From contig OX387605.1 in assembly GCA_947568835.1 (NCBI GenBank), forward strand, positions 16,806,418 through 16,870,417: a stretch of 64,000 bases of DNA. Reading direction: 5' to 3'. The translations under genes and the position numbers were made by a program. Shown here in pieces: positions 20,428 to 29,864 of this stretch (position 1 is its first letter; the number at the start of each line of letters is the position of its first letter). The stretch comes from Protonemura montana. Taxonomy: Eukaryota; Arthropoda; Insecta; Plecoptera; Nemouridae. The notes beneath the pieces are model-generated. The model was not told where the DNA came from. It searched no databases and saw nothing but the letters and a program-made list of their open reading frames with translations.

Positions 20428-21644
20428 ATCTTTACCTGCCATGGGTTCAGTTCCTTGGTTGGTAACCTATTTTTGAGAGGATATTAGTTACCCTAATAAT
20501 AAAATACCTTGCATAAATATTGTGCATATACAAAATGGCATCGTTTTATTGGCAAAGCAAAATTCAATCTCACCTCGCGTGTAGAATAACCTATATTTCT
20601 CGTTTATAGAACAGACAGGAAATTTGTGTTGATGACAGGTAGGAAACTTTAAGTTTTACGGTTTTACATATTATGTTTTCTAACAAATCATTCAATTTAC
20701 GCCACAAAAGTTCTAGTCGTTATCAGCATATTATATTGTTATCCTCCAAATACGAGAAACCATTAATATCTCTGGGCTAAAAAAACGGATACGACTATGC
20801 TTTATAGTAAAGGGTGGTAAACTCAGGAAAAGTATCCAGATACATGTAATCTAAGAAAACCCAAAGAATACAAGATTTGAAGAAAAGTCCCCGCTCGATC
20901 GCACAGGATGGAAAGGTATATAAACTTACCCGGTGTTTAGATGCGGATTAGATGAGAACCAAGCGTTTCGTTAAGACTCCTTTAAGGTTTAGTATCACGC
21001 ACACTCACCATTTTCACGCACTACTCCCTCGTTAACCAGCCCCGGCAAGATTACAAGCGATTAGAACTGGCTTACCATGACGGTGAAAACCGACAAACGA
21101 GATGAACCAGGTTGCATTGGTTAGGTTAGACACGGCGCTGCCAGGAGGCATTCAGTAAGGTCGGTAGTTAATAAGATTATAATCTAATTTGGTCAGTGGT
21201 TGACAGTATTTATCGATAAGTTCATGAGAGCAAACATATTTAATAAAATAAAACTCATTTTCTCTTCCTCCGTTCCCAAGCTCAAGATATGACTTTCCTT
21301 GTAGTGTCGTATGATAGAAGTATTGAATTTGGTCTTTGCCAATGGCGAAGTGCTGGGTAAAGGTGGACATACGGTGATTTTTTGCCAACCCATTGACGAA
21401 GGGGTGGGGGGTGGGGGGGGGCAGAATTTAAAATTTCCACATCTGTTTTTAGCTCTTTCAAAAATGACAACTCAAAAATTCCAGTGAATTTGCGTTTTCA
21501 ATCTTGGTTTCGTTTTCGACAAATAGGGCCAATCTTAAATTTCTTGTAATACAAGTAATATTGCATATATATGAGATATACAATTTTTACAGCAAACTCA
21601 CCAAAGTTTGCCATATTTCATACCCTGGACTGCTCGGTTCGATA

Positions 21645-21659
21645 CACTGCAAAAACAGT
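21645..21659 (+). repeat. Left terminal inverted repeat of EnSpm element
   Basis: CACTGCAAAAACAGT is matched base for base by the reverse complement of 29012-29026. After these 15 bases the two ends differ by a 2-base offset (ACTC here, GTACTG at the other end). The bases outside are GATA, giving a flanking TA. Confidence 0.93.
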
Positions 21660-21719
21660 ACTCTTGTTTCCAGCACATTGAGCGCTCTAAAGTTGCCATC
21701 GACTTGAAGACATTAATTT

Positions 21720-21840
21720 AGTCTGGTTTCAAGACTACTGATCCATCTGAATTTAAATTCAGAGATTCATTTTCTCTGGTTTGCAAAACCAGAGTTTCAT
21801 ACTCTCTGAATGGAGAAACCAGACAGTATGTCAGTCTGAA
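21720..21840. repeat. Left subterminal palindrome cluster
   Basis: Several small palindromes built on TCTG/CAGA lie close together. One is the perfect 18-base TCTGAATTTAAATTCAGA (21746-21763). Another is a hairpin with 9-base arms, CTCTGGTTT and AAACCAGAG, around GCA (21774-21794). Copies of CTGGTTTC, AAACCAGAC and GTCTGA follow. In CACTA elements such subterminal motifs bind the element's own protein and are needed for transposition. The same TCTGGTT/ACCAGA words recur at the right end, which supports that role here. Confidence 0.75.
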
Positions 21841-22043
21841 AATTTGGATTTGATTTGGGGATGGGATGGAATGAAAGGGAATGTGGTATCAATATCAACA
21901 CCGAATCTGCATGATATTTGCTCAACTTTATTCCTTTGGTTTTGTAACGAGATGGGTTATTACTTATTACCCATGCTAACAAAAGCATATAATACACTAT
22001 ATGGTAACAAAAAAAAAACCGGTGTCAATAGTATAAAATACAA

Positions 22044-22340
22044 GCAGGTATCAAATTCACCTTCAACATAATGCCTTCAGTGGCTATTTGGTAGGAATAC
22101 GATTTAAAGAAAAAATAGCCATGTTATGATTATCAAATCTACTATAAGTCAACACAATTTGTCAATGGCTATTTAGAAAGTAAAATATGGGAGCAGGTAT
22201 CAAATTCACCTTCAACACAATGCCTTCAGTGGCTATTTGGCAGGAATACGACTTAAAGTCAAAAAAAGTAAAGTTACGATTTCCAAATCTACTAGTCAAC
22301 AAAATTCTTTAATGGCTATTTTGGCAGCAATTTAAGTAAA
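22044..22340 (+). repeat. Two-copy tandem repeat, 149-base period
   Basis: The block beginning GCAGGTATCAAATTCACCTT at 22044 is repeated at 22193 with few changes, including ATGCCTTCAGTGGCTATTTG and GGAATACGA. The latter halves of the two units are more diverged. A shorter related word, CACAATGCCTTCAATGGCTA, recurs at 22741, directly next to the stop codon of the SAM gene. The tandem units may therefore derive from the 3' flank of that gene. They lie within the transposon, between its left subterminal region and the SAM gene. Confidence 0.85.
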
Positions 22341-22481
22341 AATAGTACCTAATGGTATAAGTAGAAAATCTACCTTAAGAACGGGCAAGTGCAAGCTCAG
22401 CAAATTCCGAAAAATTATTTTTTTACTATGTGTACTTCCAGTTGCCAAATTCCTCTGCCAAATTGTTTCTTATAGCAACAC

Positions 22482-22490
22482 ATTTTATTA
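22482..22490 (-). terminator. Candidate polyadenylation signal for the SAM gene
   Basis: On the minus strand the sequence reads AATAAAATG here, about 280 bases past the stop codon. It is the nearest canonical AATAAA I see, but cleavage position cannot be read from the sequence. Confidence 0.4.
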
Positions 22491-22764
22491 TATCTTTATA
22501 CAATTGAGTTGTTTTAACCAATGTGATAAGATAACTTATGAATGTATCCCTATACCTACATTAAAAAGCTTTTAGATACACATTTGTAAACGAACTATCA
22601 AATTTGTTTTAAAAAAATGTATTGGAGAACAAAATTCTGTTATGAGAACTAAGCTGGCAGATAGCACAGCTGGAAGTATGATCAAAAACTCAATTTGTTG
22701 GAATTAGCGATGGCAGTGGCTGCGCTTGCCCGGTCTTAAACACAATGCCTTCAATGGCTATTTG

Positions 22765-25212
22765 TTACTCTAAATCTAAATATTCCTTAATAAACTTATT
22801 GTATGTAAGTGTTCCCTGGAACTTTGTTCCAATCTTGGTTTTCAACATGTACAAGTGTAGAAATGTTAGAAACATACCATATGCAGAGGGAAAGTTTCTG
22901 TCCATTACAAAGTATGATCCAAGTAACACCAGCAGAAGCTGATGTGTCGATAGCGCGCCCGAATGGCACATGACGCGACCTTCGCATAGGAGCGCCGAAC
23001 TGATGATAGTTTTTTCATCAAAATAAACCACCATGCACGGGCCCTGCACAGCTTCAGACGTCAAGTCAAACTCTTGACCGGCCTGCAACAAAGCACGACA
23101 TTAACGCCCTCATTTCAGCTGATAGTGCGGTATATGAATACATAGCTACAAAATAATGCCAATGTACCATTGCAAGCTCCAGCAAGGGGCGACTACCCTT
23201 TTTGGTGCGAGGATGAAGTCGGGAAAGCAGCCGGACGAATAAATTCATATTCTCCAAGTCGGCAAACTCGAAGTGGTCATCTTCTTTACCAAAAATTACT
23301 TTCAGTTTTCTAGACACTTCGGCAAATGCGTCAGACGTGTTGGAGATATCTTGTATCAACCCGAAATCAAAAATCAACTGAAATAAAAATAGACAGTTAG
23401 TACCCTGATCTTTAGTAACCTGGCTTACAATTTCAATTTCAATTGAGTTAATGCCCCTACCATTTCTGTGTTTGATAAATGGGGAAATATATCCAGAATA
23501 TCTGAGCAGGTGGTTGCCGCAGCAACCACTTTTCGTCGTTCTTGCGCCGTTTGTACGAGCAAGAGCTTAATGTGTGGTCCCCCTCCAGCCCCCTTCTTCT
23601 TCAGCTCCTTCATCATATCGGACATTGGATCTTCAACTAGCTCAGCTGGTTTAGTAGTACTGTAAAAAAAAAAGTTAATTTCACATAACCTTTAGTACCT
23701 ACTATTATATTATGATACAACAGAAAGTTTAAAACAGTAAATTTTTTACCATTCGTGAATGGAGACCACTGCACTTTTGTGGACAATCTTTAGGTTCTTT
23801 GTTTTGCGGGATTTTCCCGCCAAAGTCCTTTTTTCTTCATAAACGTGATTAGTTCTGCACCTTTGAAGCCGCAATCGTACAGACACCTGTTAGAAGGGAA
23901 AAACCAATCGTAGACTTGCAGATAGATCCAAATAACCATTGCCTAGGTCAACAATTATATTTTTATATTAAAGGCTTTGACATGTAGGAGTGGCTTTAGG
24001 CAGTCACTTTAGGTATTTTTTATTAATATTACTGGCCCAATGACAATAATGATGGTATCACCGGCCATGATCGGTACCAAGTAGGTACCTACTTGCATAA
24101 AAAATGACAACCACAGAAGATAAGTTGCAACGTAAACTTACATTTCGATGTTCTGACCCGTCTCCCAAAAATGGGTACTTGTCGACAACCGCCAAACTGT
24201 AGTTTGAGTAATCAGTTGGTGTTGGGTTTCCATTTGTTATGCCCAACAGATGGACAGAGAGCATTCTTACAAGCTCTAAATGTAAATGGCCATTTCGCTC
24301 AAGGTCCCCTCGGCTATGGGCTACTTGCAGGTTATATGTAAGCTCTGGAATGGTCGTGGGGTATGGAATAACATCCTTAGTTTTCCTTTTCACATAGAAG
24401 GCATTTTTCTGTGCAAGTAGTCTTGGTTTGGGTGGAGTGTCTCTGGCAGCTGGTGATTCCACCCTGATAGTGGAGGCACTGGAGATGGAGCTCACATCCT
24501 CAATGACACAATCAACAACATTTTCAGTTGCGAATGATGTTGTGGCCTAAAATCAAAGAAATCAAAGACCAGTCAGAAGGGCAAAAAGATGATAGGGCCA
24601 AAATATTTGACATTAGGTAAAAATTATTGAAAGATGATAGGTTACCTACAAGAATGCACCGTAACTTGAAATATCAGAACGAGAAGTTATGACAAGTTTC
24701 GTACCACTACTGGGATGTTGTCCATGATTACAATGGGCTCCGACTCTTGGTGCAACTCATGTAGTTTCTTCAAAAAAATTACACGCTTTCCGATGGAAGG
24801 TATAAGAACGGCAATAATATCTGCATGCCCGCTCAGGGCAGCCAGTGCCTCCCGGTTTATATCCGCCTCTGAAATATAAAATGGAACCACCGTGAATGGT
24901 GGTGACTGGTGATACAGAGAGTGCGGCTACCTTTTCAGTGGTGGCATCACAGTTCAGTTACTTTGATCACCAGTAGGTAAGCTTTAAGGTATGTAAACTT
25001 GCATACCCTGGTAACCCTAAACTAAGCCCAAGTAGGATACATAAGGACACACACCCAAGTAGGTTAGTTTAACCTAGAAGGATATGAAAGTTTACCATTT
25101 GTTACAATGAATTAATGGTTATTCATCCTGCTTTACACTTACCTCGAAAAGATTCCACAAGTGATTCTAATCCCCACTTGTAGAGGATAGCTTCGGTGTA
25201 GTCGTCTGCCAT
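22765..25212 (-). CDS. Transposon-encoded SAM-domain protein, 500 aa, seven exons
   Basis: Exons on the minus strand: 25212-25143, 24868-24705, 24546-24142, 23886-23750, 23659-23461, 23377-23168 and 23082-22765 (stop included). Every intron is GT..AG and the phases agree. The splices join R23 to E24 in phase 1 and V78 to A79 in phase 0. Residues 7-64 form a sterile alpha motif: YKWGLESLVESF, then an INREALAALS helix and LIPSIGKRVIFLKKL. SAM domains mediate protein and sometimes RNA binding. After it come a Ser/Pro-rich linker, a basic region (around residues 215-250) and an unrecognised C-terminal half. Animal EnSpm elements commonly carry an accessory gene beside the transposase; this is presumably that partner, perhaps for DNA binding at the subterminal palindromes. 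It is divergent from the transposase gene and shares its promoter region. The donor after V78 (GTG|GTACGA) is the weakest junction. Confidence 0.82.
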
Positions 25213-25491
25213 TATTTTGTACCCGAATCGCACAGTGGCTATACAAAACACTTCGAAGATTCCCAATTTCTGAGGCGACGCCGCTTCACCTGCTATAAGG
25301 GCTAGAATCGCTAAAAACGCGCGAAAATCGGTCGGAGCTGCTGTCTAGCTCAGCCTAGGTCGGATCAGCTGACCGTGTTGTCAATGTCAAGTAGCACTAG
25401 CAGTCCGAGTTCGATCACAGGGTGCTTTTGTGTTATTTATTTTATTTAAATATTTTTAATAGATTTGCTTGCACGGTCACAATAAAATGAA
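25213..25491. promoter_or_regulatory. Bidirectional promoter region of the transposon
   Basis: These 279 bases separate the start codons of the two divergent transposon genes, so both 5' untranslated regions and promoters must lie here. The middle (about 25260-25430) is clearly richer in G+C and CpG than the rest of the element. It includes AGCTCAGCCTAGGTCGGATC and TCAGCTGACC. No clear TATA box is visible. An ATG at 25487-25489 lies 5 bases before the transposase start in another frame and opens a short overlapping upstream ORF, which could dampen transposase translation. Confidence 0.7.
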
Positions 25492-28467
25492 ATGGTGTAC
25501 TCGTGTGAGATGTGCTTTTTCAAATCTGCAAGTAGAATTTCGACAGTGCAACACGTTGTGAGAAATCATAGACATGACTTAAATTTTTTGACGAACTGCA
25601 GATTCCCAGATTGTAATGCGTCTTATCGCAACTGGGTGTCTTTCAAATCGCATGTCGCTAGGAAACACAAATACGAAGAGGTTCTTGAACAAGATCAACC
25701 TGGGCAGGAGCTGGGAGGAAACGTTGATGATATCTTTGTGAACGAAATACAATTGGGTGGTAAGTCTGACATTTCAGTTTTGAGTTGTAAACCTAACTTC
25801 ATAATATCAGATGATTCAGTTTAGCATAGTGCATTTTCATTTTATTATTGGTGTTTAACGACACACTGTTGTAGCATTTGGCCTATGACACTGGTCTATT
25901 GACATGCATTTTCTTTTACCAGAACAACACGATTTTGAGGGTGCAGTGGAAGAGATTCCATTCCCAGTCGATGCCTTGAATGAGATTCGTGGGCAGTATG
26001 TCAAATACATACAACTTGTGCGAGAGGGCTGCAATATATCGCAAAAGGCAACTGATACGATTACGGCAGGCATAATTCAATTTTCTGAAGATTCTTTGGC
26101 TGCTCTGAAGGTGTGTTAATTAAAGTTGTTCCATCTTGTTCTAAAAATTCCCACCTCGTAACTACCAACATGAACCAAATAGTATTTATTTAATCCAAAA
26201 TCCCAATTCAAGGTAGGTATCGAAGTAATTCATTTTGGGCACTAGGACCTAGCACACTGCACTGTGTCTACCTATTACACTAATTTAATTTTGGTACTGC
26301 CTTAGAACCCAAAGATAAGAATAAAATAGGTACCAATATATTGTAACCTTGCTGTACAATTCTCCGAATGAGTTCATGTTTTGAATTCAACTGTGTATTT
26401 CAGGCACACTTACTTCAATCAGTTCAACCAGATGGGATGATCTCTTCTGCTAGCATCGAGCAAATATTTGAAGACTTCAAACTCTCTACAGCAATCGAGG
26501 ATGTCAAAACTAAATATTTGCTCGATCAGTTTTTGGTAGAAAGTGGATTTTTAATTATGCCACAGTCTGTTAATCTAGGTTATGTTTGGTCTTGGGTTAA
26601 AAAACCCAGATTACACTTAGCCAGGAAGCATATAAACTTTTATGAAGTTTCATTTTTTGCTCAGCTCCAGCAGCTTCTAAATCAGGATGATATTTTGCAT
26701 TGTGTGGACCACCCAAGGGCTGTGAATAACAAAGGATTGCTAACAGATTACCAGGACGGTACTTTTGTTAAAATGCACCCAATTTTTGGAAACTGTCCTG
26801 ATTCCCTGATGATCATTCTTTATTATGATGATGTGGAAATTGTAAATCCCCTTGGGTCAAAAGTAAAGAGTCATAAGCTAGCCATGTTTTATTGGACACT
26901 TGGTAATATATATCCCGAGTGTCGGTCAACTTTGAAGGTTGTGAACCTCCTATGCATAGTAAAATCAGTACATTTACGGAAGTACGGCATGAACAAAATT
27001 TTAGAAACTTTTGTAAGGGACATGAAAATACTAGAATCCTCTGAAGGTAAAATAATGTTAATAAAAGGACTTGAGAGACGTTTTCGAGGCTCCCTTTTAA
27101 TGTTTACTGGCGACACTCTGGCAGCCAATTATGTGGGGGGCTTTAAAGAGGGGGTAGCTTTTGCCAAAAAACCTTGTCGATCATGTTTAGGCACTGATGT
27201 TTCTACCAAAATTTACTTTAGAGAGAGCCAGTTTGTGCTTAGAGACAAAGTCACTCATTCGGAACAGTGTGCTGTGTTAAGTGAACCTGGCCTACCAAAA
27301 GATGCTGTGACATTTTGGTCAAAAGAGTTTGGACTAACAGGTAGGAGTCTTCTCTGTGATATCGAGACTTTCGATATCACAACATGTCTCGTTCAGGATA
27401 TTATGCATGTTATAATAGAAGGAGTTCTTGAAATGGAAATCAGACTTTTTTTGAAATACTGCATTGAGAATTTACATATTAAACTAAAAAAGCTTAACAA
27501 CGATATCTCTGGCTTCAATTACGAACATCTCGTGAAAGACAAACCGTCTCTCATAGAGCGGAGACACCTCGATAACAAACTTCGCCAGAACTGTGCGCAG
27601 TTAATAACTTTAGGAAATACTTTGCCTTTCATTGTGGGTGACTATTTGGAAGATGACAATGAGCGTCTAATGAATCTAACATTGTTGCTGCAAATTTTGA
27701 ATTCAATGATGGCATTTGAAATCAGCATCGAAGATGTTGAGCTTTTGAAGACAATGATTGATGTTCATCATTCACAGTTTGTCTTGTTATACAGAGGTCC
27801 AACTCCAAAGTTCCATTATATGGTACATTTACCAACCCAAATTATGCTTTTCGGTCCATTACGTCATCAGTGGTGTATGAGGTTTGAGGGGGCCCACTGT
27901 CGCTTCAAGCACATGGCTTCTGTTGTCAAAAGCTTTAAAAATATAGAGTTAACTCTGAGCTATAGGCACCAATCGCTGCGTTGTGCTGAGCTGTTTAACT
28001 TACCACATGACCCGCCAAAAAATGTTCTTTGCAAGGGTGATGTTGTGCCACCTGGACGTTCCATAAAACTAGGTGACCATGAACACTTTGATTGTGTGGC
28101 ACATAGTTTAAATGACTTTGATGTGGACAAAGTTATCTTAAAAACAAGAAACTTAGCTGTGAAGGGAACCTTCTATAAAATTGGCACAATTATCTTGTTA
28201 AATAGTAATGAAGATGATCTTCCCAAATTCGGGAAGATAATAGATATCATTGTTAGTAATAGCACAAAGCTTTTGCTTTATGAAAAGATTGAAACGGTTT
28301 GGTATGAACGCTCTTACAATGCGTACAAGGTAAACGCATCGTTTCCAAAAATCATTTGTGCTACACATGTTAATCAATTAATTCATCCCCATGCTCTTTC
28401 CATGTTTCGTGTAAAGAATGATTTCTACGTTCCTCTCCTCAATCATAGAAGAAATGAATTTTTCTAA
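25492..28467 (+). CDS. EnSpm/CACTA transposase with N-terminal C2H2 fingers, 839 aa
   Basis: Exons are 25492-25759, 25923-26110 and 26404-28467, joined in phase 1 (G|AA, Glu90) and phase 0, both with GT..AG introns. Exon 1 encodes two canonical C2H2 zinc fingers: C5-x2-C8-x12-H21-x4-H26 and C36-x4-C41-x12-H54-x4-H59, presumably for DNA binding. The third exon holds the Transposase_21-like core. Candidate catalytic acids are D294/D295 in LYYDDVEIVNPLG, D389 in GDTLAANYVGGFKEG and E491 in DIMHVIIEGVLEMEI. A CRSCLG knuckle follows the second Asp, and FHYMVHLP...GPLRHQWCMRFEGAHC lies further on, as in animal EnSpm transposases. Motif assignment is by family resemblance. The long third exon is uninterrupted, so the enzyme appears intact. 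A methionine at 26368 would open a longer frame for that exon, but it lies in intron sequence. Confidence 0.92.
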
Positions 28468-28489
28468 GCAGGATTTTCTAGTGAAATCT

Positions 28490-28495
28490 AATAAA
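28490..28495 (+). terminator. Polyadenylation signal of the transposase gene
   Basis: AATAAA lies 23 bases after the stop codon. It is close to the stop, so the 3' untranslated region would be short; further AATAAA-like words follow at about 28628 and 28726. Confidence 0.6.
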
Positions 28496-28747
28496 TATAT
28501 GCACTGACCAACCTATCTCGAAATGGTACACTTTTATTGTTTTTGTCTTGTAAAATCATGTAATTAATGAATAATTTTATTCATTTATTAATGGAGTTTA
28601 ACGATACCTACTGATATGTTGGATTTCAATAAAATTATAAAGACCATTCCAAATGAAATGTGTAATAACTCTAGCTGCAACAATTTGAAATTTCACATGT
28701 AAATATTTTTTGAATTATAGTTGAAATAAATAAAAGGTGTTGACTTC

Positions 28748-29000
28748 AAGTCTGTCTTTTTCTGGTTATCAGACATCGGGGGTCAGTGTTGCAGCGAAGA
28801 TGATACAAGATTAACGTTAAATCTGGTTACCAGACTATCTGAGTCATGGTCAGATAGATAAAATCTGAAAATCAGACTAATTCTATTGCTAAAACACGAT
28901 GAAGCATTTTTAAGACTTTACTTTTTAAAAAATCTCTGGTTTTAAGAGTGGAAAATAAAATCAGACTAAAGATATCTGCTTTTAAGATTTCAAAAGTCTT
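28748..29000. repeat. Right subterminal palindrome cluster
   Basis: Repeated TCTGGTTA(T/C)CAGA and ATCTGA...TCAGAC words occur here: TCTGGTTATCAGA, TCTGGTTACCAGA, TCAGATAGATAAAATCTGA, TCTCTGGTTTTAAGAG. They mirror the left subterminal cluster and probably serve as the second set of binding sites for the element's proteins. Confidence 0.7.
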
Positions 29001-29011
29001 ACATTCAGTAC

Positions 29012-29026
29012 ACTGTTTTTGCAGTG
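29012..29026 (-). repeat. Right terminal inverted repeat of EnSpm element
   Basis: The reverse complement reads CACTGCAAAAACAGT, identical to the left terminus. The next two outside bases are TA, as at the left end. Confidence 0.93.
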
Positions 29027-29864
29027 TAGCTAGAAACAAACCGTCACGATTCCAAACATTTGCCAAATAAAACACACATTTCGCCCACTTTTCCCATGGT
29101 TTTACCGTAGCACACCAACATCCATATTCGGCCATGAATACAAATTACAAAAGTAAACATGTAATGGGGATTGAAGTCTCTGATAATATGTTTACCGTGC
29201 ACGTTTGTTACCTACATATACTACCAATGATTTTCGCTGCACTATGTGTACAGATTTAAGTATTCCAGGTAGGCAGACACCTATATAAAGTATTAATTCG
29301 TTAACTAGAATGGGAACCCCTTTGGAATATCGAGGTCCCCATTTGCTAATGCGTTGTTGTATCTGTCGGACTCTGAAACTAGGGACCTGAGTTTTGTGTA
29401 TACCCGATACCAATACCTTTACTGCACTTAATTGAGTGATCGCTATATAGAAATAGTTCGCATGCTTCACTGTTATTTAACTTTTCGGATGATGACGCAG
29501 TGGAAAGGCACTCTATGATATAACATCAATGGATTTGCGAAACCAGGCAAACATGCACAGCCACAGACACACACACATCAATGTGACTTGATTAGCTAAT
29601 TGCTTACCGCAGAGTTACCGATCAAAGATGAAAATTACCATGGAAAACTTGGAAAATGCGTGGAAACGCTTGATAGCAAAGGTTTTAAGAGTGAGGATTA
29701 CCATTATAATATCCTGAAGTATCTAGAGAGAAAAAAGGCACACGATTCAATTCATTTTACCGCATTGTGTACTTTTAATCTTTTCATCGTTATGCCTTGT
29801 GTCTGTCGATTTGCATCTAAATTGGGTTTATGCTGATCCCTCGTTTTCCGATGACATACCAGTG

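Follow-up and report, generated by a model that had tools for sequence, protein, structure and literature searches.

CACTA elements are best known in plants, where insertion creates a 3-bp target-site duplication. Maize Spm/En produces two proteins, TnpA and TnpD, by alternative splicing of one transcript, and its two ends each carry subterminal repeats in both orientations. According to the accessible part of PMC1636069, plant-type elements terminate in a CACTA core; the same text describes SmTRC1, represented by an apparently complete copy that is 99.8% identical to another, by transcripts and by many truncated copies. The animal element Spongebob, as depicted in the available excerpt of PMC4298943, lacks a readable transposase owing to stops or frameshifts. 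The CMC/CMCT group is characterized in the available portion of PMC12730594 by CA..TG ends with terminal inverted repeats (TIRs), a 2-5 bp duplication, and C(2)C and H(3-4)H motifs between the second D and the last E.

The window, a 64,000-nucleotide stretch of an insect genome, harbours an element of 7,382 bp (21645..29026), whose limits are set by its TIRs and by 13 insertions with differing flanks. Its assignment to the EnSpm/CACTA superfamily in the first-pass annotation holds on the basis of the termini, the duplication length and the zinc and catalytic motifs, with the reservations that the ends read CACTG instead of CACTA and that no Pfam model matches at cut-off. By analogy, the element resembles maize Spm/En in having two element proteins and, at each end, subterminal repeats of both orientations, but two separate divergent genes replace the single alternatively spliced transcript. 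It was not placed among the plant-type elements, as it combines CACTG with 2 bp instead of a CACTA core with 3 bp. With the CMC(T) group, as far as the accessible text of PMC12730594 defines it, the element has in common the CA..TG (indeed CAC..GTG) ends, the 2-bp duplication and C(2)C and H(3)H motifs, whereas fungal EnSpm families are given there a 3-bp duplication. An animal CACTA-like transposase and a 2-bp duplication are likewise common to SmTRC1 and its relatives (TRC), but the latter, in the part of PMC1636069 available, begin with CCC and have one predicted open reading frame with alternatively spliced transcripts, whereas the present element has CACTG ends and two divergent genes. 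TRC membership was rejected on the missing CCC core, and ESTA membership because the duplication is TA at just 9/13 sites and TT, TG or CA elsewhere. The element represents a new family within an established superfamily.

Termini and subterminal repeats

The 5′ TIR, CACTGCAAAAACAGT (21645..21659, plus strand), and the 3′ TIR (29012..29026, minus strand) are perfect complements (15/15) and are bordered by a TA duplication on the left (21643..21644) and on the right (29027..29028). Subterminal clusters with motifs in both orientations are located at 21722..21840 (5′; TCTGGTT, AACCAGA and TCTGAA) and at 28751..28980 (3′; TCTGGTT and ATCAGAC). CAGA/TCTG, a core picked after inspection of the sequence, occurs 21 times in the 560 bp that adjoin the two TIRs internally; dinucleotide shuffles average 6.9 (0/2000 reach 21), and at most 10 were counted in any of 2000 internal pairs. 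The best 7-mer over both ends, picked without a prior look, gave p = 0.001; for single ends taken separately, 5-, 6- and 7-mers did not reach significance in the family of the window element (p 0.056 to 0.90). Both termini and both subterminal clusters claimed at first pass are present, with exact coordinates, perfect TIRs and clusters that exceed shuffled sequence.

In the 258-Mb host assembly the TIR 15-mer is found 35 times, against 0 for a reversed-pattern control, and 33/35 matches belong to termini of copies of the window element. The two lone matches lie on C14 and C16, and a reading of them as miniature derivatives was rejected. They have 2 and 5 CAGA/TCTG motifs in the internal-side 280 bp, compared with 9 and 12 per 280 bp at the element's own two ends, and no second exact TIR was found near either. 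Given these few motifs both look like chance matches, the second one less clearly.

The two genes and a sister family

The first-pass description of an intact two-gene element is borne out, as both spliced genes are open and their introns are GT-AG. Gene 1 (25492..28467, plus strand; exons 25492-25759, 25923-26110 and 26404-28467) encodes a predicted transposase of 839 amino acids with two N-terminal C2H2 fingers, C(2)C and H(3)H motifs, D389 and E647. D389, C410xxC413, H623xxxH627 and E647 also occur in a second family of the same genome, family B, and in a third, ~30% identical relative; judged from this pattern, D389 and E647 are probably catalytic. A candidate for the first catalytic Asp is D294/D295 in the motif YYDD, which is kept in family B and in the window family (family A), while the sequence of the third relative does not include that region. 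No Pfam model matched gene 1 at cut-off, the best being DUF4218 with 17.1 bits against 27, a tool threshold and not a defining feature of EnSpm/CACTA; a PDB profile search with gene 1 returned 0 chains. Intron 1 contains a ~60-bp unit (25841..25901) that recurs with 80-88% identity at 22 further scored positions of the host genome.

Gene 2 (22765..25212, minus strand) comprises exons 25143-25212, 24705-24868, 24142-24546, 23750-23886, 23461-23659, 23168-23377 and 22765-23082. By the geometry of the gene models, the two divergent start codons are separated by 25213..25491, presumably a shared promoter region. The junctions predicted at first pass were kept for both genes except for the exon 6 donor of gene 2, where 23168-23377 is preferred over 23150-23377; as homology with the sister family favours this other donor, the best model of the accessory protein has 500 rather than 506 amino acids. 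Comparison with family B lends support to the eight predicted junctions.

The family B element (L021:2526-9434; 6,909 bp) displays 60% and 41% protein identity to the window family for gene 1 and gene 2, respectively. Its TIR begins with CACTGCAAAAA, as in family A, and a TA duplication was seen in the copy read. Family B is present as two full-length identical copies, one internally deleted copy, one that was only partly read and two 93% partial matches. Gene order, exon numbers and the CAGA/TCTG subterminal core are common to both families, whereas the subterminal unit of family B is ATCAGAC. With the B gene models selected using the A models as a guide, intron phases agree at 8/8 and positions at 7/8: both introns of gene 1 coincide in position and phase, and among the six introns between the seven exons of gene 2 all phases are identical, five share an alignment column and one is displaced by 4 columns. 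Since the dS from NG86 was unusable for both genes, and LWL85 yielded values for gene 1 alone (dN 0.28, dS 1.22), we relied on differences by codon position. These amount to 249/174/461 over 837 codons in gene 1 and to 233/185/333 over 483 codons in gene 2, and indicate constraint on both proteins. The same two-gene plan, the eight intron phases and the common subterminal core support both the gene models and this constraint. Outside the host genome, a transposase alignment search gave 40 pattern matches each in viral and in genome contigs, none of which was confirmed as a relative.

Of all parts of the element, the accessory gene is understood least. Pfam and PDB profile searches did not reveal a confident domain in gene 2: no SAM or SAM_2 match was obtained for the window element, and searches with the whole protein and with its N terminus yielded 1 PDB chain each, none convincing and none a SAM chain. 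In family B, SAM_2 was matched with E = 0.015 for the first 68 residues alone and 0.58 for the whole protein. Gene 2 may resemble proteins predicted in fish and invertebrates as 'SAMD3-like'. Among the papers listed in a literature search, judged mostly by title, none dealt with a SAM-domain accessory gene of EnSpm elements, which may still be published, in Repbase Reports or elsewhere. The want of a confident domain and the faster divergence of gene 2 than of gene 1 (41% vs 60%) would suit a protein dispensable for transposition, either a captured host gene or an anti-silencing factor. In families A and B alike, however, gene 2 retains its divergent placement, its seven exons with matching phases and an excess of third-position change. 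Its retention in both families together with this excess suggests that gene 2 is useful to the element, and we consider dispensability rather unlikely.

On a working model for transposition, the gene 1 DDE transposase would cut at the CACTG ends and join them across a 2-bp stagger, with TA preferred. The subterminal CAGA/TCTG repeats are putative docking sites for one or both element proteins, and the gene 2 product, whose N terminus is weakly SAM-like, might help to gather the ends, as TnpA does in maize Spm.

Copies and insertions in the host genome

That the genome is arthropod-like, as noted at first pass, is correct: of 362 candidates scored, 127 matched 7tm_6, an odorant-receptor family that marks insects, giving 129 matches in all. 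The assembly contains 14 full-length copies, of which 11 are identical letter for letter and three differ at one or two positions, in total 4 differences in 103,348 bp. Both reading frames are open in 13/14; a stop interrupts gene 1 in one full-length copy, and in one a residue of gene 2 is altered. Three further copies are broken up by other transposons. Over 18,656 aligned bp they differ by 8 mismatches and 3 gaps in total, mostly beside the break points, and exon 3 of gene 2 in one of them additionally carries a 4-bp insertion. Genome searches with both ends, in which very common words were skipped, found only ends that are 100% identical (16/16 at the 5′ side, 17/17 at the 3′ side) and no decayed, truncated or miniature family members.

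The 13 distinct insertion sites all display a matching 2-bp duplication (TA 9, TT 2, TG 1, CA 1). Searches with the joined flanks showed that 4/13 sites lie in repeats with uninterrupted paralogues elsewhere, one of which is 100% identical across the junction. The near-identical copies with empty sites anticipated in the first-pass annotation were hence found, the empty sites at paralogous and not at orthologous positions. Distinct flanks, different duplications and uninterrupted paralogues together identify the copies as separate insertions.

Gene conversion or assembly smoothing could exaggerate the identity among copies, and an old resident family homogenized by gene conversion or assembly collapse would account for it without recent spread; two copies do sit in a common duplicated locus. 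Such a family is nevertheless very improbable, given the separate insertions, the private changes in some copies and the decayed or truncated copies that would be expected but were not found with both ends. Many near-identical copies and no old worn-out ones found point to very recent spread. Recent amplification, as first proposed, is well supported: besides the window copy there are 13 full-length copies, 10 of them identical to it, so copies are neither absent nor merely diverged. We conclude that the element is very probably an autonomous cut-and-paste EnSpm/CACTA (CMC) DNA transposon that was amplified very recently in its host insect.

Some time has elapsed since this burst, as indicated by the interrupted copies, the gene 1 stop, the gene 2 change and the duplicated locus. 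The three interruptions and the stop would also be in line with a burst that is by now silenced or dead, its sequence intact and without current movement; yet both frames are kept in 13/14 full-length copies and all ends found are intact. We regard this outcome as credible though less favoured, and from its sequence the element may still be moving. The identical copies with both genes intact provide a ready substrate for asking whether an animal CACTA element moves and whether the second protein is needed, and they record a transposon invasion near its start, ahead of decayed or miniature copies.

The family appears to stem from one recent founder, most simply introduced by horizontal transfer or introgression. 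A bolder proposal, which we put forward tentatively and hold to be doubtful, is a currently mobile two-component animal CACTA system, in which a zinc-finger DDE transposase would act with a SAM-like oligomerising protein that gathers the subterminal repeats, an independently arisen counterpart of TnpA, with two lineages having recently entered the host by horizontal transfer.

Local hopping is only suggested by the distribution of 15 insertions, interrupted copies included. Tested at four thresholds set after the places had been seen, and with 3/11 simulated contig sizes assumed to be equal shares of the remainder, 6 pairs lie at most 2.2 Mb apart against 1.7 expected (p 0.011); the pair counts at limits of 0.5, 1 and 3 Mb are 2 (p 0.057), 3 (p 0.048) and 6 (p 0.031), respectively.

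Structure and classification of the element

The EnSpm/CACTA-like element (family A) spans window positions 21645-29026 (7,382 bp), where perfect 15-bp inverted repeats, flanked by a TA duplication, mark both limits, exactly as the first-pass annotation had placed it. Its two-gene description was equally accurate: inside lie the divergent transposase gene 1 (25492..28467, (+) strand, three exons, 839 residues) and accessory gene 2 (22765..25212, (-) strand, seven exons), the latter encoding 500 residues with the homology-favoured donor or 506 with the alternative. Two C2H2 fingers open gene 1, both here and in family B, a second two-gene family of the same genome. The CAGA/TCTG core, selected post hoc once the sequence had been inspected, occurs 21 times in 560 bp of element ends (shuffle mean 6.9; 21 or more in 0 of 2000 shuffles), with no significant enrichment when each end was tested singly. 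Within gene 1 intron 1, a ~60-bp unit (window 25841-25901) is 80-88% identical to at least 22 other places in the host genome among the best 40 of 133 candidates, and a partial second copy lies at 28584-28607; the element may have captured it as part of a repeat, either the host's own or a shared one. In the 64-kb window beyond the element, the longest stop-to-stop frame measures 194 residues, and searches there yielded no tRNA match and nothing at gathering score in Rfam.

Pfam returned only sub-threshold matches to the transposase, the best being DUF4218, which we take to be linked to EnSpm transposases. Residues D389, C410xxC413, H623xxxH627 and E647 are kept in family A, family B and a third relative from contig C2 (~30% identical). 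The cysteine and histidine pairs agree with the CMC(T)-group motifs C(2)C and H(3-4)H described in PMC12730594, and favour the annotated EnSpm/CACTA class. Family A ends in CACTG with a 2-bp duplication, in contrast to the CACTA core of plant CACTA elements and the CCC ends of animal TRC elements, as described in PMC1636069.

Copies and insertion sites in the host genome

The annotation had also described the element as apparently intact and a good candidate for recent or ongoing activity. Searching the 34 contigs of the host assembly (258,480,905 bases) for copies, with the best 40 of 139 candidates scored, revealed neither a solitary element nor a set of highly diverged ones. At least 14 full-length copies were found among these candidates, of which 11, the window copy included, are identical letter for letter, while the other three carry one, one and two base differences. 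Both reading frames are kept in 13 of the 14; in one copy gene 1 is cut short by a stop at residue 281, and in another gene 2 has a single changed residue.

Three further copies are interrupted. The two on C12 contain inserts whose open frames resemble a non-LTR retrotransposon, as judged by reading frames; in one of them 125 bp are missing at the break as well, and in the other the 5' end is absent. The third, on C1, holds a 4.1-kb insert with an 863-residue open frame inside gene 1 (C1:5122168-5126271). Pooled, the three show 8 mismatches and 3 gaps over 18,656 aligned bp, and most of these changes adjoin break points; away from them the C1 copy has a substitution plus a 4-bp insertion in gene 2, and one of the C12 copies a single substitution. 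Scoring of all candidates placed the first 346 bp of the element at 16 positions and the last 292 bp at 17, each with 100% identity, and the 17 copies (14 full-length, 3 interrupted) explain every match. Neither end search, made with a tool that skips very common words, disclosed decayed or miniature members. Element sequence flanking the C1 insert overlaps by 11 bp, which suggests a target duplication. On C12 (12813042-12847931), nested and duplicated transposons are entangled, the interrupted copies among them, with duplicated blocks 99.7-100% identical.

Of the 14 full-length copies, two share a locus that is present twice on C14, ~60 kb apart (flanks 99.3% and 100% identical), which leaves 13 distinct sites. 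A matching 2-bp duplication is present at 13/13 sites (TA 9, TT 2, TG 1, CA 1). Joined flanks from at least 4 of the 13 sites match paralogous repeats that run uninterrupted across the junction, with the best 40 candidates scored out of 1178 and out of 111. Identity is 100% in the first (260 bp) and 94% in the second (258 bp, of equal length); the remaining two align with small gaps and reach 95% and 89%. At two of these four sites the flank frames resemble a retrotransposon polyprotein, as judged by reading frames. Insertions apparently cluster at C1 1.84-7.27 Mb and C4 4.89-5.67 Mb (p 0.011, best of four thresholds), possibly through local hopping.

A second family and protein constraint

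Family B is a second recently spread two-gene family, with two identical 6,909-bp copies in differing flanks on C11 (3170525-3177433 and 3207394-3214302). An internally deleted copy at ~2.90 Mb on C2 has lost 1.6 kb of the transposase exon; a further copy at ~18.64 Mb on C1, read in part, shares the 3' end, and two 93% partial matches to that end lie on C5. Its subterminal regions hold long ATCAGAC arrays, and close to the 5' end the family has a tandem repeat of 171 bp.

It carries the same two divergent genes, with protein identities to family A of 60% (gene 1) and 41% (gene 2). Intron phase agrees in 8/8 cases and alignment column in 7/8, the eighth intron (gene 2 exons 4/5) being offset by 4 columns in a poorly aligned region. 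Family B junctions were picked, following the A models, by eye or from an enumeration, and the family A gene 2 exon 6 donor was picked to fit family B; since the models guided each other, the comparison backs frame and order strongly and any single junction less so. Across 837 codons of gene 1 the families differ at 249/174/461 first, second and third positions, and across 483 codons of gene 2 at 233/185/333; on this basis both proteins appear to be under constraint.

Mechanism, age and origin

We consider it highly probable that family A is an autonomous cut-and-paste EnSpm/CACTA transposon, very recently amplified in the host insect; our confidence is slightly lowered by the extra changes in the interrupted copies and the one inexactly aligned intron. 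The DDE transposase would cut and paste the element into targets biased towards TA, cutting them with a stagger of 2 bp, a mode well supported by the anatomy. The gene 2 product would bind or pair the subterminal repeats, as its conservation and analogy with Spm TnpA suggest. Its resemblance to SAM is weak, with E = 0.015 for the gene 2 N-terminus of one of the two families.

Four differences in 14 x 7,382 = 103,348 bp amount to ~4 per 100,000 sites. Assuming ~3e-9 mutations per site and generation for insects, the spread would lie roughly ten thousand generations back, an order-of-magnitude figure prone to bias from gene conversion, the duplicated C14 locus and assembly smoothing. The interrupted copies, somewhat more changed than the full-length ones, may be older. 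From the absence of older copies we infer one recent founder, for which horizontal transfer would be the simplest source and introgression a possible other; searches of viral and prokaryotic collections yielded no donor.

Two nuclear stretches that match COX1 lie on C4 (5760925-5762262 and 5776811-5777755), ~0.09 Mb away from a copy of the element, the first scoring equal to the apparently mitochondrial 15.9-kb contig C34; either mitochondrial DNA was copied into the nucleus very recently or the assembly is in error here. The odorant-receptor family 7tm_6, to our knowledge confined to insects, has at least 129 matches in the host assembly (best 127 of 362 candidates), which identify the host as an insect. 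Seven odorant-receptor exons with equal scores recur every 12,986-12,987 bp at C14:1574191-1652280, forming either a tandem array of recent origin or a repeat produced by the assembly.
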